Position numbers and translations under genes: made by a program. DNA of 32,016 bases from Lachnospiraceae bacterium (GTDB lineage Bacteria > Bacillota > Clostridia > Lachnospirales > Lachnospiraceae): NCBI GenBank assembly GCA_014804785.1, contig JAAUZD010000016.1, positions 5,281-37,296 on the forward strand, read 5' to 3'. This document shows, piece after piece, positions 10,356-26,127 of this stretch (position 1 is its first letter; the number at the start of each line of letters is the position of its first letter). Under the pieces are notes generated by a model. It was not told where the DNA came from, searched no databases, and was given only the letters and a program-made list of their open reading frames with translations.

Positions 10356-10976
10356 ATGAGAATACTTGCAATTGCAGACGAAGAATCGAAATATCTTTGG
10401 GATTATTACGAAAAAAGCAAGCTGGAGGGAATCGACCTTATTATCTCCTGCGGCGACTTAGATCCCCGATACCTTTCTTTCCTCGTGACTCTTTCCAATG
10501 TGCCTGTGCTATATGTGCACGGAAATCATGACGGAAAATATGAAAAAACACCGCCGGAAGGATGCATCTGTATTGAAGACCAGATTTATGTCCACAACGG
10601 CATCCGCATCCTGGGGCTTGGCGGCTCCATGCGCTATAAACAGGGACCGCACCAGTACACAGAATTGGGCATGAAAAAGAGAGTTGCACGATTGTGGCTT
10701 AAGCTGCTGCGCCACCGCGGTTTTGACATTTTAGTGACCCATTCACCCGCCTATCAGCTGAATGATGGGCGGGATCTTCCCCACCAGGGTTTTCAGGTAT
10801 TTCGGACGCTGCTTGAAAAATATAAACCCAAATTTTTTCTCCATGGGCATGTACATATGTCCTATGGGCGGACCCACAAACGATATGACAAATATATGGA
10901 TACCCACATCATCAACGCGTTTGAAAGATGTGTGTTTGATTTTGAAGATGATAATCCAAAAGAACACATCCGCTAG
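10356..10976 (+). CDS. Calcineurin-like metallophosphoesterase
   Basis: This 206-residue protein is a cytosolic metal-dependent phosphoesterase. The motifs in order are D8-E-E (where most relatives have D-x-H), GD (33-34), GNHD (56-59), H129 in THSPAY and GHVH (164-167). These are the metal ligands and general acid of the fold. Replacement of the first His by Glu may shift metal preference. The Shine-Dalgarno (GAGGAAGG) lies inside the last codons of the upstream ParB/BMP gene, pointing to translational coupling. The substrate is unknown; partner context suggests a nucleotide or a signalling phosphate. Its TAG stop shares a CTAG tetranucleotide with the stop of the convergent gene. Confidence 0.88.
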   Translation: MRILAIADEESKYLWDYYEKSKLEGIDLIISCGDLDPRYLSFLVTLSNVPVLYVHGNHDGKYEKTPPEGCICIEDQIYVHNGIRILGLGGSMRYKQGPHQYTELGMKKRVARLWLKLLRHRGFDILVTHSPAYQLNDGRDLPHQGFQVFRTLLEKYKPKFFLHGHVHMSYGRTHKRYDKYMDTHIINAFERCVFDFEDDNPKEHIR

Positions 10977-13771
10977 GAATTTTCCTCAAAGCTTTCCTTA
11001 AAGGCATCCATTTCCTTTTTTGTTTCACCGGAAAGCATATCTTCCAGCGAATTTTTCCTATCCGGATGTGCATTCTTGAAATCTTCAAGTATCTGACCGG
11101 AAACGCGTTCCATTTCTTCCTTCAGTTCCCTCGAGGAAATCAGCCTGCACCCTTCTCCTGTAATGATGATCTGTTCAAGCCCATCCGACGTGGCAACCGT
11201 CACATCAAATTTTCTGCCGTTCTCATGGGCAAATTTTTCAATATACTGATCGGCGCTCTCCGCTTCTTTCGTATAGACCACGTGTATATTGTGATAATCC
11301 AGGACTTCCGTGGAATGTCCCTCCAGACGGTAAGCATCGAACACCGCAATCAGACTGCATTTTCTGACCGCCTGATAATTGCACAGTAAATCAAGAAGCT
11401 TCCCCCTTGCCCCGTCCAAATTCTGTTTTGCCAGTTCCCGCAGTTCCTCCCATGCAAATATGACATTGTATCCATCCACCAGCAGATATTCTTCCTTTTT
11501 CTGCACAGGCTGATAGTTCCTGATCTGGGGTTGTCCCTCCGTAAAATCTGTTCTTCCTCTGGTTCTTTTCCATCCGGTCCTTATCCCTGCCTTATTTTCC
11601 TTTCGGTTGGCATAAGAAGTACGGCTTAATATCTCATTGATTTCATCCTGTCCGATCCACTTTTCTTCCCCACCATTTGCATGCTTTTCCTTAAAGCGCG
11701 CCCTGCCGCTTATGCCTGTTCCTCCTTCACCCCAATATCTTTCCCAATCTTCTTCCAGGAAATGTTTTTTATCACGAAGACAGCTCTCTAAATGCATATA
11801 GGAAGAGACCTGATCCCATTCCACAATAAAACCGGCTCCATGGGCACAAAATACAGAAGCGGATGGATTCTCGATATCACCTAACGGATCATACCCTGAT
11901 TTTTCCAGCACTTCTTCTGTATTATGGCAGGGGTAATATCCTTTCATAGTACAGTATAACTGCCCTTCCCCTTTTGTGTAGGCAAGCACCTCCTGCTGAT
12001 ATTCCTGCAAAAGCGCCATAGGCGCCATTCCCTTAAGAACCGTCGTTCCCTCTCTGCTGTGAGATATGGTAAATGTGCCATGTTTTTTATCCAGATCCGT
12101 CATAGCACGTCCTACCATATGATCCGGCACTTCCAGCGAAAAATCATAATAAGGCTCAAGCAATACACTTTCTGCCTGCATCAGCCCCTGCCGCAGCGCC
12201 CTGTATGTTGCCTGTCTGAAATCTCCTCCCTCTGTATGCTTTTGGTGGGCGCGTCCTGATTTCAATGTGATTTTCATATCTGTGATAGGAGCCCCCAACA
12301 GCACACCCAGATGCTCTTTTTCTTCAAGGTGGGTCAGCACCAGCCTCTGCCAGCTTAAGTCCAGGATATCCTCACTGCAGTCTGCCTTGATCACAAGTCC
12401 GCTGCCCGCCTCCCCTGGTTCTAAAAGAAGATGTACTTCCGCATAATGACGAAGCGGTTCAAAATGTCCAACCCCTTCCACTGTATCTGCAATAGTTTCC
12501 TTGTAAACAATGTTCCCTTTTCCAAACTCCACAGGGACGCCAAATCTCTCTTCAATCAGCTTTTGATAGATTTCTATCTGAACCTGACCCATGATCTGAA
12601 CCCTGATTTCCTGACTCTTTTCATCCCAGACAATATGAAGCTGGGGATCCTCCTCCTCAAGCTGTCTTAGTTTTGGAAGCATCCATGGTGCTTCACACCC
12701 TTCCGGCAGAAGAATACTGTAGCTAAGAACCGGTGAAAGTTCCGGATAAATAATTTCCTTTGCAATTCCCAGCCCTTGTCCTGCAAAGGTTTCTTTGAGC
12801 CCCGTGACAGCGCAGATAGCACCTGCAGACACTTCGCTCACAGACTCAAATTTTTCTCCCGAGTAAATTCTAATCTGGTTTACCTTTTCTTCCCATTCTC
12901 CTTCTTTCCCGGAATTTGCTGTAACCCCCCTTCCTCCGGTGAGAACTTCCCTCACCTTCAAGCTGCCTCCGGTAATCTTCATATGGGTGAGGCGGTTTCC
13001 CTGGGCATCCCGCGTAATCTTAAAGACTCTGGCGCCAAATTTTGCCGGATATTCTTTTTCGGGTAGATATTTCTCCAGACCGTCCAACATCTCTTCCACC
13101 CCCACTACCTTAAGGGCAGAGCCAAAAAAGCAGGGAAAGATTTTTCTTTCCCCTATCAACTTTTGTATATGTTCTTTCCCGATTCTGCCTTTTTCTAGGA
13201 ACTCATTCAAGGCATCTTCCTCGCAGACCGCGATGTTTTCGTAGAAATCTTCTGTTCCCGGTTCCGAAAAGTCCACACAGGATTCACAGAAATGATCTCT
13301 GATCTGGTGCAAAATCATCTTTTGATTTGTGTCCGGCTGATCCATTTTATTGACAAAAAGAAAAACCGGCACCCCATAGCGTTTCAGCAACCGCCACAAA
13401 GTAAGTGTATGCCCCTGCACACCATCGCTTCCGCTGATTACCAGAATTGCAGCATCCAGAACCTGCAGCGTGCGCTCCATCTCTGCCGAAAAATCCACGT
13501 GCCCCGGTGTATCTAAAAGTGTAATCTCTACCTGCCCTCTTTTCAAAATCGCCTGTTTGGAAAAAATCGTGATACCTCTCTCTCTTTCCAATCCGTGAGA
13601 ATCCAGGAATGCGTCCTTCTTATCCACCCTGCCCAGCTTGCGGATGCTGCCGCTCACATAAAGCATTGCCTCTGATAAAGTTGTCTTTCCGGCATCCACA
13701 TGGGCAAGAAGCGCAACGCTGACACGTTTTGATGGACTTCCGGATATTTTATTTTCAGACGTATCTTCCAT
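10973..13771 (-). CDS. TetM-like ribosome-associated GTPase fused to YacP/Rae1-like NYN nuclease domain
   Basis: This 932-residue protein has the order G domain, EF-G-like domains, NYN domain. G motifs are AHVDAGKTT (23-31), the switch I Thr68 in ERGIT, DTPGH (87-91), NKMD (141-144) and a later GSAL, as in tetracycline ribosomal-protection proteins. The middle matches domains III-V of that family and ends with an extra FCAHGAGFIVEWDQV segment. After a basic linker, residues 762 to about 900 form a YacP-like PIN/NYN domain with LLVDGYNVI (Asp766), VFDAY (Asp812), ESADQYIE (Asp841) and ATSDGLEQ (Asp863). Rae1/YacP cuts mRNA in the ribosomal A site, so I infer a GTPase that visits stalled or blocked ribosomes and cleaves the message. 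ATG 13771 follows AAGGGG; the longer frame begins with TTG inside the upstream gene. Confidence 0.88.
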   Translation of the reverse strand: MEDTSENKISGSPSKRVSVALLAHVDAGKTTLSEAMLYVSGSIRKLGRVDKKDAFLDSHGLERERGITIFSKQAILKRGQVEITLLDTPGHVDFSAEMERTLQVLDAAILVISGSDGVQGHTLTLWRLLKRYGVPVFLFVNKMDQPDTNQKMILHQIRDHFCESCVDFSEPGTEDFYENIAVCEEDALNEFLEKGRIGKEHIQKLIGERKIFPCFFGSALKVVGVEEMLDGLEKYLPEKEYPAKFGARVFKITRDAQGNRLTHMKITGGSLKVREVLTGGRGVTANSGKEGEWEEKVNQIRIYSGEKFESVSEVSAGAICAVTGLKETFAGQGLGIAKEIIYPELSPVLSYSILLPEGCEAPWMLPKLRQLEEEDPQLHIVWDEKSQEIRVQIMGQVQIEIYQKLIEERFGVPVEFGKGNIVYKETIADTVEGVGHFEPLRHYAEVHLLLEPGEAGSGLVIKADCSEDILDLSWQRLVLTHLEEKEHLGVLLGAPITDMKITLKSGRAHQKHTEGGDFRQATYRALRQGLMQAESVLLEPYYDFSLEVPDHMVGRAMTDLDKKHGTFTISHSREGTTVLKGMAPMALLQEYQQEVLAYTKGEGQLYCTMKGYYPCHNTEEVLEKSGYDPLGDIENPSASVFCAHGAGFIVEWDQVSSYMHLESCLRDKKHFLEEDWERYWGEGGTGISGRARFKEKHANGGEEKWIGQDEINEILSRTSYANRKENKAGIRTGWKRTRGRTDFTEGQPQIRNYQPVQKKEEYLLVDGYNVIFAWEELRELAKQNLDGARGKLLDLLCNYQAVRKCSLIAVFDAYRLEGHSTEVLDYHNIHVVYTKEAESADQYIEKFAHENGRKFDVTVATSDGLEQIIITGEGCRLISSRELKEEMERVSGQILEDFKNAHPDRKNSLEDMLSGETKKEMDAFKESFEENS

Positions 13772-13868
13772 CGAAACTATCCCCTTCTGTGATCTATAAT
13801 TCATAATTTTATTTTCAAAATTTACCTTGCTCTGCTTTTCAGATGGTAAAGGATTCGGAAACCGCTGG

Positions 13869-14756
13869 TTAAAGAAATGCACAATTGTCAGCTGAAGCTC
13901 TTCTTGCAAGTTCAAGGCATCCCATTATTCCCTGATTATCCTTAAGACTTGCCGGAACAATATATTTTTCCATATGCTCCAGTTCTCTTGTTTTAATATA
14001 TCCGTTCAATATCTCTTTTACATAATTTCTGATGATAGGAAATAGCTGTTCCTGATGCATGACCCCGCCCCCTAAGATAATCATCTCCGGTGAGAGTGTC
14101 AAAATATATCCGCTGAGCGCTTGGGAAATATAATAACCTTCCAGATCCCAGACCTCTTCTCTTTCCTTTAATACTGCCGCCTTTTGTCCCCACCTTTCCT
14201 CTATGGCGGGTCCCGCCGCAAGTCCTTCCAGGCAATTCCTATGATAAGGACATTTTCCTTGATACTGATCATTGGAACGCTTTTGAATCAGCACATGCCC
14301 CGCTTCGGGATGGAGCATTCCATGAAGCAGCTTTCCCTCAATAAATACACCTGCTCCCACACCAGTTCCTATAGTAACGTAGACCACACAATTTTTGCCT
14401 TTAGCCTGTCCAAATGTGACTTCTCCAAGGACGGAACTATTTACATCTGTATCAAATCCCACAGGGCAGGAAAGTGTCTCCTTGAACGCTCCTACGATAT
14501 TATAATCCCTCCATGCCAGCTTAGGGGTACTGGTAATATACCCATAAGTCGCAGAATTCCTGTCAGGATCGATAGGACCAAAGCATCCGATTCCCAACGC
14601 ATCTATTTTTACTTTCCTGAAATACTCAATCATTTGAGGTATTGTTTTCCCCGGTGCTACGGTAGGTATGGATATCTGCTCAAGAATCTTTCCCGTTTCA
14701 TCCCCAACAGCACATACCATCTTGGTACCGCCTGCTTCTAATGCCCCCAGTCTCAT
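13869..14756 (-). CDS. ROK-family sugar kinase, probably fructokinase
   Basis: This 295-residue cytoplasmic kinase phosphorylates a hexose with ATP. It shows the N-terminal phosphate loop EAGGTK (7-12), the likely catalytic Asp104 in TDVN, the GTGVG loop (130-134) and a complete zinc site: His154 in HPEAGH, then Cys169, His172 and Cys175. The spacing (C-P-x-H-x2-C-x-E) fits the Bacillus YdhR-type fructokinases more than glucokinases, which use CxCGxxGC. ATG 14756 is preferred because GGGGAG precedes it; the upstream ATG abuts the stop of the phosphatase gene and has no such site. It lies between the histidine phosphatase and GTPase genes in one direction. Confidence 0.9.
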   Translation of the reverse strand: MRLGALEAGGTKMVCAVGDETGKILEQISIPTVAPGKTIPQMIEYFRKVKIDALGIGCFGPIDPDRNSATYGYITSTPKLAWRDYNIVGAFKETLSCPVGFDTDVNSSVLGEVTFGQAKGKNCVVYVTIGTGVGAGVFIEGKLLHGMLHPEAGHVLIQKRSNDQYQGKCPYHRNCLEGLAAGPAIEERWGQKAAVLKEREEVWDLEGYYISQALSGYILTLSPEMIILGGGVMHQEQLFPIIRNYVKEILNGYIKTRELEHMEKYIVPASLKDNQGIMGCLELARRASADNCAFL

Positions 14757-14780
14757 ATTACTTTTCTCCCCAAAACGCAT

Positions 14781-15549: not shown

Positions 15550-16065
15550 ATGTTTCAAAAAGGAGAATATGTAATCTATGGTAACAATGGAATATGCCTC
15601 ATACAAGATATTACTACTCTGAATATTCCAGGTGTTGATAAGAATAGGCAATATTATCTGCTAAAACCGGTATATGCATCTGGCAGTACTGTATATACCC
15701 CTGTAGATACAGCAGAAACTTCTCTTCGTCATGCCTTGTCAAAGGATGAAGCAGATAGTCTGATCCGGTCAATTCCTGATATTCCTCTGATTCCGCTGGC
15801 CGATGAAAAAACATTAGAGAAAACCTATAAAGAATATATGCGTTCCAATAATTGCAAAGCGTGGGTTCAACTAATTAAAACAATTTATCTGCGGAAGGAA
15901 CGCCGCATCATGAAAGGTTATAAAGTGACTGCACTGGACAACCGTTACTTTAATCTTGCAGAAACCTCTCTCTATGGGGAACTATCCATTGCACTTGGCA
16001 AACCGCGGGATGAAGTCAAATCCTATATCTCCAGCTGTATTGATGAAGGGCATGTGGAAGGCTGA
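15550..16065 (+). CDS. CarD/CdnL-family transcriptional regulator
   Basis: This 171-residue protein belongs to the CarD_CdnL_TRCF family, which binds the RNA polymerase beta subunit and stabilises open promoter complexes. The N-terminal Tudor-like part starts MFQKGEYVIYGNNGICLIQD and runs to the PVYASGSTVYTPVD segment (about 1-60). The rest is the helical DNA-contact part, with the basic stretch IYLRKERRIMKGYKVT and a final acidic helix. Length matches family members in Clostridia. Start ATG has a strong GGAGG 7 nt upstream, and its own good promoter lies just before. It is alone in its direction. Confidence 0.92.
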   Translation: MFQKGEYVIYGNNGICLIQDITTLNIPGVDKNRQYYLLKPVYASGSTVYTPVDTAETSLRHALSKDEADSLIRSIPDIPLIPLADEKTLEKTYKEYMRSNNCKAWVQLIKTIYLRKERRIMKGYKVTALDNRYFNLAETSLYGELSIALGKPRDEVKSYISSCIDEGHVEG

Positions 16066-18187: not shown

Positions 18188-21100
18188 CTAGTGTCTTATT
18201 GAAAAATAGTTTAACAATATCTCCTTGATATGGTTATAGCGTCTGGCATAAGAATTTTCCACACGGATAATCTGTAGATTATGTGCTTTGCATATTTCAT
18301 TCTTCTTGCAATCCCTATTCTTTACAATATCATTTTCAAAGTGTTCTTTCCCATCCAGTTCAATCGCCAGAACCGGTATCTCATGCTTCTCCAACACCTC
18401 GTATACGACAAAGTCAAAGCGCCCGTTATAAAACAAATCGCTATAATTGATGTTGTCTGTAAACACATGAGAAATCGCCACCTCTTTATATACCTTATAT
18501 GCACTTTGCGAGAGCCAGATATTTTCCAACGCATGCGTCAAGTTCTGCAAAAATGCTTCTTCCGTAGCTGTGCTAAAGGGCTTTACTCCCAACGCCCGGG
18601 AATTTGTCTGCTTCTGTGTGACCTTTGACTGTCCATTTGTCCGGACATACTGTACCAATTCAAATAAATCATCCTCCCCGTCCTTTTGGTGCAGCCTCTC
18701 CAAATTTGGGGTATTTGACAATACAATCAGCTTCTCCTTCGCCCTGGAAGTTGCTACATTAATTAATTCTTTATTGTTTTTCAACCATTCGTAAGTTCCT
18801 GCTTTTGTCTGATTCGTAATTGCTGTGGAAAACAATACCACATCCTTTTCATCCCCCTGAAAGGCATGGACTGTACCGCAGGTTACATTGGACAGGTTTT
18901 CGCTTTTCAACATTTTTTCAATCAGGTTTTTCTGATTGACGAAAGGTGTAATGACACCAATGGACTTATCCTTATTTGCTGATGCATACTTTATAATCTC
19001 CGATGCCTCTGCTGGCGCAGTATTTTTATAATCCGCCTCGTCATTTTGTACATTCACATAAATCAGTGGCTGTGCCTCTTTACTCTCTGTCATGACATGC
19101 AGCTTAGAATTATAATATTTCTTATTATTGAACTCTATTATCTGTTTATGGCAGCGATAATGATTATGTAAAAGAATTTCATCACTGACCGCATCACATG
19201 CAAGATATGTTTTATATATCGAGTTTTTCCGATAATCGTAATCATCTGAAACATTATATCTTTTCTTTAACTTCTGATTCGTCATCTCATCCAGTACGAT
19301 TACGGGATTAAGCTGCTGTGGATCCCCTACCAGCATCAAACTTTCGCCGCGGATAATAGGTACAAGAGAAATTGCTGTATTGCATTGACTTGCCTCATCG
19401 ATAATCGTCATATCAAACAGCGGTTCCGGTTTTCCCAATCGGTGTGCAGATATACAAGTGGTTGCAATAATGGGGAATATCTTTTGCAGTTTCTTTATAT
19501 TTTCTGAGTCGCTTAAGTATTTTGCAAAACTGACAGCCTGCGTCTCTTCATCCTCCGTCAGAATAATATCTCTTAAATCCTTATTTTTAGGCTCGTTCAG
19601 CTTTTGAATATATTTTGCTGACGTATAATAAAGATACTTTCCAAGTTCTTCCGGATGGTCATCCAACAGTTCTAATGCTTGTTCATCAGTAATCGCACCT
19701 GTCTTTTCTATTTCGATGTTGACCCGTCTTAACTGTCTTCCGCTTAAGTCTGTCTGGAACGGCAGCATCTGCAAAGACTGCTTTCCCTTCTTTTCATACT
19801 CCAGCAACCTGTTCAAGGTCTCGCTTCGCTCTTTCAAATCCAGCAGTTCCTCATATCGTTTTAACAAATCCGATAACTTTTTGGCGCGCTCTGCCCGGTC
19901 ATCCTTGTTTCTGTCCAGTGTCTTTTCAAACACGGTTATCTCCTGAACCTGATAGTACAATGCTTTCATGTATGATAATGCTTCTTTTACTTTCTCATTA
20001 TTTCCCAGGCGCAGGATGGGGAATGGTATCGTTCTCCCTTTGTGCTGCATGCTTGAAAGTTTTTCAAATACACTATTAATCGGGTGATTATTGTATGATG
20101 CAAACAGCACTGTTTTTTCGTTAAAAAAAGCGGTGGCGATGGTGTTGATAATCGTATTCGTCTTGCCCGTTCCCGGCGGTCCCTGAATATAAGCAACAGG
20201 ATATTTCATCCCATTGTTTATCGCCAGAAGCTGGTCCATGTTGACGCGCTGATTAATCAGCGCAATAGGATATGCCTTTTTACGAATGGGGCGATTTAGC
20301 AAATCTCCAAAAAATGCCTTAATCGGTACCGGCACCTCATTTTTATGATACATATCGACAATCGACTCATATTCCTTATGCAAGTCTAATGCAATATCCA
20401 TTCCAAGACCTATCACATAAGGCATATCATCTGTTCCAAGACTCTGTCCTCTTCTTTTCGTTATGCAGTCCTTTATTGTCTCCTGATTTTCTTCAAAATT
20501 CTTCAAAAGTTCATATTCTTCTGCATCAAGGTATCGCCGTATGTTCTCCGTTGTTCCATCCAAAGTATACTCTGTACAAATCGTGATTTCGTCATCCGGT
20601 CGCAAGACCCTTCTTTTCACATCCAATTGCAGCTTTCTATATGCAAGCACATAAAGTCCCTTCGCGGTATGAATACTAAGAACATTCATTGCAAGCTGTT
20701 GAATCTTTAGTCGTCCATCTCTGCTTCCTTTTTCTTCTGCCTTGTATTGAAAATTCTGCACAATCGTGCGGAACTGCTCCTCGCTTAATTCATAAGCATC
20801 TCCCTTAAAACTTTCCCTGTCTAAAAAACGAACCAATTCGAAATCTAAATAGTATGGAACAGCATCCATCCGATTGCACATTTCCAAATAATTTAAGATT
20901 TTCAAATTGGCTGTATTATCAAATAATCCTTTATACTTATGTGGGTTTAAATAGACATCACGGACTAATTCCCGATTGACAGGACAGTAAGAACCCTCAA
21001 TCACTTTAGATGACAGAATAGAATCAATATAAATATAATCATAGGTATCTGTTGTGTATTTGCTAAGATGAAGCCCATCTACCGCTAAGGTGCGCTTTGC

Positions 21101-21223
21101 AACGTTCAGATTGCGAATACCAATCCAATACTTCGTAATCTGATTTTCTTTGTTGCAATATTCTATCCCCAGCCATTTTCCCTCATGTATGGCACGAAAG
21201 ATATCACGGTATATTGAATTCAT
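18188..21223 (-). CDS. SF1 helicase with WYL-like N-terminus and DUF2726-type nuclease-like C-terminus
   Basis: This is a 1011-residue cytosolic protein. Residues 1-85 look like a WYL-type ligand/regulatory fold (AIHEGKWLGIEYCN, RTLAVDGLHLS). The helicase core carries Walker A GPPGTGKT (348-355), a long insertion with coiled-coil character (about 430-540), Walker B IIDEASQ (607-613), GDPQQL (633-638), HYRCHKQI (688-695), TVHAFQGDEKDVV (784-796) and VATSRAKEKL (823-832), as in UPF1-like SF1 enzymes. The end (about 885-1011) matches DUF2726, a restriction-endonuclease-like fold, with RFDFVV (Asp937) and IELDGKEH (Glu955, Asp957, Lys959). I infer a DNA- or RNA-processing defence protein. ATG follows AAAAGGGG; TATAAT on the minus strand lies at 21300-21295. 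It sits alone between direct repeats. Confidence 0.88.
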   Translation of the reverse strand: MNSIYRDIFRAIHEGKWLGIEYCNKENQITKYWIGIRNLNVAKRTLAVDGLHLSKYTTDTYDYIYIDSILSSKVIEGSYCPVNRELVRDVYLNPHKYKGLFDNTANLKILNYLEMCNRMDAVPYYLDFELVRFLDRESFKGDAYELSEEQFRTIVQNFQYKAEEKGSRDGRLKIQQLAMNVLSIHTAKGLYVLAYRKLQLDVKRRVLRPDDEITICTEYTLDGTTENIRRYLDAEEYELLKNFEENQETIKDCITKRRGQSLGTDDMPYVIGLGMDIALDLHKEYESIVDMYHKNEVPVPIKAFFGDLLNRPIRKKAYPIALINQRVNMDQLLAINNGMKYPVAYIQGPPGTGKTNTIINTIATAFFNEKTVLFASYNNHPINSVFEKLSSMQHKGRTIPFPILRLGNNEKVKEALSYMKALYYQVQEITVFEKTLDRNKDDRAERAKKLSDLLKRYEELLDLKERSETLNRLLEYEKKGKQSLQMLPFQTDLSGRQLRRVNIEIEKTGAITDEQALELLDDHPEELGKYLYYTSAKYIQKLNEPKNKDLRDIILTEDEETQAVSFAKYLSDSENIKKLQKIFPIIATTCISAHRLGKPEPLFDMTIIDEASQCNTAISLVPIIRGESLMLVGDPQQLNPVIVLDEMTNQKLKKRYNVSDDYDYRKNSIYKTYLACDAVSDEILLHNHYRCHKQIIEFNNKKYYNSKLHVMTESKEAQPLIYVNVQNDEADYKNTAPAEASEIIKYASANKDKSIGVITPFVNQKNLIEKMLKSENLSNVTCGTVHAFQGDEKDVVLFSTAITNQTKAGTYEWLKNNKELINVATSRAKEKLIVLSNTPNLERLHQKDGEDDLFELVQYVRTNGQSKVTQKQTNSRALGVKPFSTATEEAFLQNLTHALENIWLSQSAYKVYKEVAISHVFTDNINYSDLFYNGRFDFVVYEVLEKHEIPVLAIELDGKEHFENDIVKNRDCKKNEICKAHNLQIIRVENSYARRYNHIKEILLNYFSIRH

Positions 21224-24575: not shown

Positions 24576-24876
24576 TTTCATACAAGTGATTGAATTTAAA
24601 AGCAATGATAAGAAGAAGTAGCATAAAGTGAAACATACAGAAAGCAGCCGGTTGATGAGAGGCGCATGGGAAGCTATATGTGAATACATCTTTGAGCTTC
24701 GCACCAAATAATCTTATGATTTAGTAGGCTGCGACGGTTCCTGCATCCGTTAACATGCTAGAGTATAAGCCCCAGGCGGGTCGTACTTGAAGAGGTAAGC
24801 AGCGTAAGCTGTTTATGAACATTAGGTGGTATCACGAGATTTGACTCTCGTCCTATTGAAGGACGGGAGTTTTTTA
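24573..24876 (+). promoter_or_regulatory. Tyrosine T-box leader of tyrS
   Basis: This leader senses uncharged tRNA-Tyr and controls read-through into tyrS. A stem I element has arms GAAGCT (24670-24675) and AGCTTC (24695-24700) enclosing GAATACATC, whose UAC at 24685-24687 fits a Tyr specifier codon. The conserved T-box sequence AGGTGGTATCACGAG lies at 24824-24838 and can compete with the terminator stem at 24845-24869. The boundaries are approximate; the 5' end is set by the promoter. Confidence 0.88.
24845..24876 (+). terminator. T-box regulated terminator
   Basis: CTCTCGTCC (24845-24853) pairs with GGACGGGAG (24861-24869, one G-U pair), followed by six T. Part of the 5' arm would pair with the T-box bulge region in the antiterminator form. 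Confidence 0.85.
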
Positions 24877-24894
24877 TTTAGGAGGAAAAATGAA

Positions 24895-26127
24895 ATGACA
24901 ACTAATGAAACTTTTTTAAGCCGGGAAGTCAACCGTCAGATGCGCATTATCTTAAAGGGCGCCGCACAACTTATCGGAGAAGAAGATTTAAGAGCAAAAC
25001 TAGAACGCTCGATCCGAACAGATAAGCCCCTCATCGTCAAGCTGGGTCTGGATCCCAGCGCGCCGGACATTCACTTAGGTCACGCGGTAGTTCTTCGCAA
25101 ATTGAAGCAGCTGCAGGACTTAGGACACCATATCGTAATCATCATCGGTGACTTTACCGGACGCATCGGTGACCCAACCGGAAAATCAAAGGGACGCAAA
25201 GCTCTTTCCGACAGCGAAATTCTGCTCAATGCGCAGACCTATCAGGAACAGGTTTTCCGCGTGCTCGACAAGGATAAAACAGAAGTCCGCTACAACGGAG
25301 AATGGCTGGAACTTTTAAATATGGAGGAAATACTAAAACTTGCCGCCAGTACTACCGTTGCCAGAATGCTGGAGCGGGATGATTTCCAGAACCGCTACTC
25401 CCACAATGTCCCTATCGGTCTGCATGAATTCTTTTACCCTCTCATGCAGGCTTACGATTCCGTTGCCATAAAAGCGGATATTGAACTTGGCGGCACCGAC
25501 CAGACCTTCAACATCCTAATGGGACGCTCCCTTCAAAAATCCTTAAATCAAGAGCCCCAGGCCGCACTCTTCATGCCTATATTAGAAGGACTTGACGGCG
25601 TGGAGAAAATGAGCAAAAGCCTTGGAAATTACATTGGCGTACAGGAAGAGGCAAATGTCATGTTCAAAAAGATTATGGAAGTCCCTGACTCTCTCATCAT
25701 CAGATACTTTGAACTGGCAACCGACATTCTGCCGGATGAACTGGATAAAATAAAATCCTCCCTTGATAACGGCTGTAATCCCAAAGACTGCAAACTGCTT
25801 CTGGCACGCACCATCACCGCCTTATACCACACCCCAGACGAAACCGCTGCCGCCGAAGAATTTTTCCGCCAGGCATTTACCAATAAGGGAATACCAGAAG
25901 AAGTTCCCTCACTTCCCATCCCCTCCGGAAAAGACAGCCTGCTGCAAGCAGTTCCTCTCCTTGTGCAAAGCGGTTTTACGGCAAGCAGCAATGAATTCCG
26001 CCGCCTGCTCACCCAGGGCGGCATCTCCTTAAACGGAGAAAAAATCACCTCTCTGGATACCGCTATCGTCAGTGGTGATGTGCTGAAAATCGGGAAAAAG
26101 AAGTTTGTCAGATTTGTATTTGCATAA
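24895..26127 (+). CDS. tyrS: Tyrosyl-tRNA synthetase (TyrZ-like type)
   Basis: This 410-residue cytosolic class I synthetase attaches tyrosine to tRNA-Tyr. The catalytic domain has HLGH (60-63, the HIGH motif), GDFTGRIGDPTGKS, the tyrosine-site block QAYDSVAIKADIELGGTDQ and KMSKS (238-242). The C-terminal part (about 345-410) is an S4 RNA-binding domain (SSNEFRRLLTQGGISLNGEKI). The HLGH/KMSKS combination and length fit the TyrZ branch. ATG 24895 is set by GGAGG 9 nt upstream. An out-of-frame ATG at 24890 reads only ATG-AAA-TGA. Control is by the tyrosine T-box directly upstream. It is a single-gene transcript, convergent with the AraC gene. Confidence 0.97.
   Translation: MTTNETFLSREVNRQMRIILKGAAQLIGEEDLRAKLERSIRTDKPLIVKLGLDPSAPDIHLGHAVVLRKLKQLQDLGHHIVIIIGDFTGRIGDPTGKSKGRKALSDSEILLNAQTYQEQVFRVLDKDKTEVRYNGEWLELLNMEEILKLAASTTVARMLERDDFQNRYSHNVPIGLHEFFYPLMQAYDSVAIKADIELGGTDQTFNILMGRSLQKSLNQEPQAALFMPILEGLDGVEKMSKSLGNYIGVQEEANVMFKKIMEVPDSLIIRYFELATDILPDELDKIKSSLDNGCNPKDCKLLLARTITALYHTPDETAAAEEFFRQAFTNKGIPEEVPSLPIPSGKDSLLQAVPLLVQSGFTASSNEFRRLLTQGGISLNGEKITSLDTAIVSGDVLKIGKKKFVRFVFA

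Follow-up and report, generated by a model that had tools for sequence, protein, structure and literature searches.

Within a 32,016-nucleotide stretch of DNA from a Lachnospiraceae bacterium (assembly GCA_014804785.1, contig JAAUZD010000016.1, positions 5,281 to 37,296; hereafter the window), a gene on the minus strand at 10973..13771 (ATG start, stop codon included) encodes a 932-residue protein in which five domains of EF-G type are linked through a flexible stretch to an NYN_YacP (Rae1-type) nuclease domain on one chain, as seen by Pfam and AlphaFold2. Both modules are intact and conserved. We consider it probable that this fusion serves the cell as its Rae1, a housekeeping endonuclease for messenger RNA (mRNA) that is directed to ribosomes by an EF-G-class GTPase on the same chain and cuts in or near the ribosomal A site. 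Across the family, the fusion and the stand-alone rae1 gene replace one another, and the fusion appears to have taken the place of the separate Rae1 enzyme that is otherwise usual. Published work presents Rae1 as an A-site endoribonuclease, with entry into stalled ribosomes as a proposal (PMC6613710, PMC10100781).

An earlier note, made from this DNA alone, had called the open reading frame at these coordinates, and it proved to be a real minus-strand gene of the length given. Pfam recovered, in order, GTP_EFTU (2.2e-51), EF-G_D2, EFG_III, EFG_IV, EFG_C, and NYN_YacP (6.4e-51), which bore out the note's proposal of a GTPase and a Rae1/YacP-type NYN domain on one chain. As the Pfam coordinates run from a longer TTG frame, 48 was subtracted to give the 932-residue numbering used here. 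The G domain with its G1–G5 motifs (Pfam GTP_EFTU and conservation) occupies residues ~15–237 (13061..13729, with this and all following features of the gene on the minus strand), followed by domain II (EF-G_D2; ~245–331, 12779..13039), domain III (EFG_III; ~347–418, 12518..12733), domain IV (EFG_IV; ~420–533, 12173..12514), and domain V (EFG_C; ~536–617, 11921..12166). A conserved extension after domain V (residues 618–661, 11789..11920), which falls inside the profile that homologues without the NYN domain match as well, leads into a linker (662–760, 11492..11788) that is mostly modeled at low confidence and contains a conserved helical motif (708–719, 11615..11650; majority pattern DxELxxIFxRTYG). 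The NYN_YacP domain (~763–924, 11000..11485) was delimited by Pfam, profile, and model. The AlphaFold2 model had a mean predicted local distance difference test score of 87.9, with linker stretches 682–707 and 720–754 below 50. VIA-align structure comparison of this model spanned residues 10–651, that is, the GTPase half, which it places as an EF-G-like five-domain GTPase. The distance between the GTPase and NYN profile matches is 89 in the window protein against a median of 70 (n = 110, a few artefacts with negative values included).

By profile, the C-terminal part is a match to Rae1/YacP, and its model is of high confidence, in agreement with its earlier reading as an NYN domain. Its NYN_YacP score is 173.1 bits against a curated cut-off of 24.6, and a PDB search with a profile built from the NYN domains of 20 fusions returned YacP only (5mq9 and 5mq8, best E 5.5e-39), with the four acids in register with those structures. 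These putative catalytic acids, identified by alignment conservation, are Asp766 (11474..11476), Asp812 (11336..11338), Asp841 (11249..11251), and Asp863 (11183..11185). They lie at exactly the residues named in the earlier note and are invariant in all 98 aligned fusions (an alignment without two of the 80 named loci, L080 and L093). Counted separately, 42 fused and 32 stand-alone NYN domains each retain all four at 100%, as do 9 further stand-alone domains from the same family, and the positions at least 90% conserved in both sets include them. A second signature has diverged. The Arg of the GAxRxSAxEL segment, whose use as a mark of Rae1 membership is a criterion set in this analysis and not a published definition, is present in 44/44 sampled stand-alone rows, ten of them from the same family. 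At the same position R or K occurs in only 20 of 45 fused domains and is replaced in the other 25, among them the window protein (Leu877, 11141..11143).

The GTPase half carries the ribosomal-protection-type G motifs that had been read from the sequence, namely G1 AHVDAGKT (23–30), G3 DTPGH (87–91), G4 NKMD (141–144), G5 GSA (217–219), and the switch I Thr68, and most G-motif positions are invariant or >90% conserved across the 98 fusions. The window genome has no second close relative of this GTPase, as its next-best match to the profile scores 134.9 against 1148 bits. The label "TetM-like" fits broadly, as a statement about the EF-G-like class, but it does not hold at closer range: Tet(O)/Tet(W) proteins of phage records share 28–31% identity over 64% of the query, whereas NYN-less homologues on Ligilactobacillus salivarius plasmids share ~48% over 70%, and the tip of domain IV is different. 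This tip loop, SGRAHQKHTEGGDFR (residues 505–519, 12215..12259), aligns with GLYYSPVSTPADFR of TetM/TetO, in which the third loop of domain IV reads YYSPVSTPADFR. The TetM-type YYSPVST, which we take to be the key part of the Tet domain IV tip, is thus replaced by AHQKHTEGG in the window protein. Of the 98 fusions, 90 have HTEGGDFR at the tip, 5 have a different HTxGGDFR, and 3 have neither; the SPVS motif occurs in none. HTxGGDFR is also common to 17 NYN-less GTPase rows, again without SPVS, and one of five Tet-like rows (L162) carries HTHGGDFR, so the tip is not exclusive to the fusions and their NYN-less relatives. The TetM-like row L161 has YYSPVSTPSDFR at this place, SPVS included. In Tet proteins the tip loops dislodge the drug, according to Atkinson 2015 (PMC4342817).

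These comparisons bear on the suggestion made for such proteins in 2015, that they are tetracycline resistance proteins of the TetM/TetO kind which, with an added RNase, form a new resistance mechanism. TetO/TetM are indeed the best PDB matches of the GTPase part, though EF-G scores nearly equally, and a relative in Agathobacter rectalis (L176:4983-7784, NZ_CP143948.1, WP_306784676.1), with a match to 95% of the fusion, bears the public name "TetM/TetW/TetO/TetS family tetracycline resistance ribosomal protection protein." We nevertheless regard resistance as very unlikely. It is disfavoured by the low identity to Tet(O)/Tet(W), by an NCBIfam tet_protect score of 418.6 bits that falls below the cut-off of 775, by the absence of SPVS from all fusions and NYN-less rows while L161 retains it, and by context: the fusion occurs in most sampled genomes of the family without conserved neighbours, and only 2 of the 1,291 matching plasmid records cover 80% of it. 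The name of WP_306784676.1 is probably misleading, and a tetracycline-resistance label on such a gene in a gut commensal could inflate resistance counts. Separately, two unverified faecal scaffolds labeled "Bacteriophage sp." match 93–95% of the fusion (L174:15001-17532, MT835514.1; L175:5418-7958, MT835563.1); these may be bacterial contigs.

The distribution of the fusion was examined in samples of one genome per species, some of them incomplete: 120 genomes from 120 genera of the family, 291 of the class, and 398 of the phylum. Of the fusions in other genomes, 19 full-length ones match over 885–924 residues at 48–59% identity. Among 588 confirmed relatives in named genomes, the best 80 are all fused over nearly their full length, in a scan that favoured full-length fusions because its search patterns were drawn from both modules. 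Relatives are titled Lachnospiraceae, Oscillospiraceae, and other Clostridia. Within the family sample, the fusion is present in one frame in 96 of 120 genomes; 9 have only a stand-alone Rae1, 12 have no NYN match, and 3 (G714, G767, and G770) have what we interpret as fusions interrupted by contig ends or a frameshift. No fusion genome in this sample has a clear second, stand-alone Rae1, although in G711 and G748 a contig ends in a second, partial NYN match. The fused domain is the only NYN_YacP match in the genome from which the window comes. The phylum sample has NYN_YacP in 208 of 398 genomes and the fusion in 23, each with exactly one NYN match. A GTPase frame of at least 740 residues is found in 101 of the 291 class genomes, 4 of which have two NYN matches; in one of these (G519, 61% complete) the two matches are two fusions. 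The p values for exclusivity of the fused and stand-alone forms ignore kinship.

This pattern, together with the lack of conserved neighbours and a tip unlike that of TetM, supports the housekeeping role that the earlier note had offered as possible, and the evidence favours it over resistance. A strict link between a separate GTPase and a separate Rae1 found mixed support. Separate GTPases occur in 5 of the 9 family genomes with a stand-alone Rae1 (one, G771, with a truncated GTPase) and in none of the 12 without NYN (p 0.006), the best of three tests. The corresponding counts are 9/85 against 6/101 in the class (p 0.29) and 4/185 against 2/190 in the phylum (p 0.44), all three ignoring kinship.

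The genomic position of the separate gene adds to this picture. In the same family, the stand-alone Rae1 adjoins rlmB in 7 of 9 genomes; mrnC precedes the gene in 7, cysS does so in 6, and 3 have a sigH-like gene nearby. The window's genome has the order cysS-mrnC-rlmB-GDSL lipase-sigH and no NYN at the rlmB region; its GDSL-lipase gene (L154:4418-5749, contig C28) occupies the interval from rlmB to sigH in which several relatives carry rae1. This company of rlmB, mrnC, and cysS is one of the points that speak for another reading, in which the GTPase is the working part, as an EF-G paralogue that clears the A site or back-translocates, and the NYN domain processes ribosomal or transfer RNA rather than mRNA. 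NYN-less homologues of the GTPase do exist alone, and rRNA/tRNA maturation is the role proposed for NYN in Atkinson 2015 (PMC4342817), citing Anantharaman and Aravind 2006. Later work instead has Rae1 as a translation-dependent mRNA endonuclease (PMC6613710, PMC10100781), and all four acids are retained in the fusion. We judge the RNA-processing reading improbable.

The trees were built without duplicates (L001, L014, L018, L019, and L023, plus L155 in the NYN trees), and the fused rows were drawn from the other named fusions by taking one in four or one in eight (45, 42, and 35 rows). In the GTPase tree, 35 fused rows form one clade (100/100), outside of which fall 17 NYN-less homologues and five Tet-like rows; the 17, all from other genomes, are the nearest rows to it. 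The first NYN tree placed L145 outside the fused group. In the second, which omits L145, L146, and L148 (the NYN conservation count above also omits L132, L157, and L169), 42 fused rows share one side of a 100/97 branch with ten same-family and two same-order stand-alone rows, apart from 32 other stand-alone Rae1 rows across it; this tree is compatible with a single origin of the fusion. Fission as the source of the same-family stand-alone genes is unlikely for the 7 of 9 that adjoin rlmB, while three stand-alone Rae1 genes (L177, L180, and L132 of G626) lie away from it. Taking the NYN tree placement, the GTPase clade, and the rlmB loci together, it therefore seems that a rae1 of the same order joined a pre-existing GTPase and that the old rae1 copy was then lost. 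Some horizontal spread is also suggested, because the fusion of G522, from another family, nests among the f14 and f62 rows.

How the two halves might work together can be postulated from their relatives. An EF-G-like half is expected to bind the factor site, with domain IV reaching the A site. For the fusion, we infer ribosome binding, coupling to the GTPase, mRNA cleavage, and an order of events as follows. The GTPase would bind at the factor site when the A site of the ribosome stands empty or fills slowly, domain IV would enter or test the A site and depart after GTP hydrolysis, and the NYN domain, tethered by the ~90–100-residue linker, would then cut mRNA in or near the same A site, so that the cleaved message could be degraded and the ribosome freed. 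This stepwise order, GTPase before nuclease, is proposed because domain IV and the NYN domain are unlikely to share one A site; the linker is in principle long enough for such a hand-over. A more specific version, which we put forward tentatively as somewhat less than an even prospect, is a GTP-gated mRNA endonuclease, in which an EF-G-class factor samples open-A-site ribosomes and hydrolysis hands the site to the nuclease on the same chain, making the protein the family's main factor for translation-coupled mRNA decay. If so, the relaxed Arg and the helix conserved in the linker would be signs of a nuclease that is delivered by its GTPase and does not find the ribosome by itself.

Several observations weigh against the fusion being the cell's Rae1 in this sense. 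Domain IV and the NYN domain could hardly occupy one A site together. The Arg that is invariant in stand-alone Rae1 is Leu877 in the window, and the NYN domain may for this reason dock differently; a reasonable reading, judged from the alignments, is that a contact required by free Rae1 might become dispensable once the GTPase delivers the domain. Replacement is also not absolute, because three genomes of one genus (G522, G584, and G625 of g296) give a second NYN match beside the fusion. In the same genus, G421 has the fusion only, and G451 has a rae1 beside rlmB and no fusion match; it is from G451 that we infer the second matches to be stand-alone Rae1. As the 12 family genomes noted above have neither form, the function seems dispensable in some lineages. 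The GTPase can moreover exist without Rae1, as 6 of the 15 class-sample genomes with an NYN-less homologue give no NYN match at all. Finally, transfer-messenger RNA is present in the window's genome, so the common rescue route is not lacking.

The competition for one A site also speaks for a nuclease that acts elsewhere, either at the mRNA entry or upon an adjacent ribosome that has collided, as a collision-type rescue factor would. The conserved helix of the low-confidence linker could be a docking motif for such a role, and 25 of 45 fused domains have another residue in place of the stand-alone Rae1 Arg. We noticed no feature pointing to a collision interface, though no search was aimed at one, and Rae1 alone is proposed to act in the A site (PMC6613710, PMC10100781). 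Collision-type action appears unlikely to us, and cleavage in or near the GTPase-sampled A site remains our preferred reading.

Regarding the start of the gene, the longest frame begins at TTG 13915. A likely ribosome binding site, AGAAGGGG (13781..13788, minus strand, read from the sequence), precedes ATG 13771, and most of the 19 homologues start ~13 residues further in, which makes this ATG the likely start. An Rfam scan found no element near the gene, and promoter and terminator scans around it scored near chance. Its neighbours are a ROK sugar kinase upstream (13869..14780, minus strand; context only, and not a conserved neighbour), a histidine phosphatase, and a metallophosphoesterase, the last in addition to the sugar kinase and phosphatase correctly recognized before. 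Over 100 loci, several of them short and two (L046 and L093) apparently one contig, no neighbour was conserved; the largest neighbour cluster covered only 9 loci, so a conserved operon partner was rejected, and the fusion is not part of a cassette. Elsewhere in the window, we observed a T-box leader at 24596-24858 (plus strand; Rfam RF00230, 108.8 bits) overlapping the start of an open reading frame at 24826-26127, and a 1011-residue protein with AAA_11/AAA_12 helicase domains and DUF2726 (18188-21223, minus strand). A 171-residue protein (15550-16065, plus strand), presumably CarD-like by its look, has a relative near the fusion in 2 others of the 100 loci.

The GTPase-NYN architecture is not new here, as it was published in 2015. 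Atkinson 2015 (BMC Genomics 16:78, PMC4342817) reports a YacP-like NYN domain on "Tet" proteins from ten species of Clostridiales, for which it suggests resistance that works through an RNase. We recognized no other paper on the fusion in the open-access literature, most subscription papers lying outside the search. The present analysis adds the pattern of replacement, the separate clade formed by the GTPases, and the change at the Arg position. The fusion bears on the route by which Rae1 gets to the ribosome and on whether its cleavage is factor-coupled, and its presence in most sampled genomes of one family, with the separate halves in a few close relatives, offers a direct test of coupling to a translation factor.

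Likened to those published Tet-NYN fusions by domain architecture, the window protein shares a Tet-like GTPase followed by a YacP-like NYN domain in Clostridiales. Those were reported as Tet, whereas here the GTPase stands apart from Tet(M)-like rows, lacks the TetM tip, and has the look of a Rae1 replacement. With Bacillus subtilis Rae1/YacP (PDB 5mq8, 5mq9) the protein has in common the NYN_YacP domain, the four acids, and the DGYN, FDA, TAD, and ATSD motifs; it differs from a typical Rae1, a stand-alone protein of ~170 residues often beside rlmB, in placing the domain behind a GTPase at another locus, with Leu877 for Arg. TetM/TetO share the EF-G-like five-domain GTPase with its G motifs, but are only 28–31% identical and have another domain IV tip, and the fusion adds the post-domain V extension and the NYN domain. 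The NYN-less "translation factor GTPase family" proteins supply the 17 nearest tree rows and share the HTxGGDFR tip (those of Ligilactobacillus salivarius being likened by their ~48% identity only), yet these have frames of ~650–700 residues, with neither linker nor nuclease.

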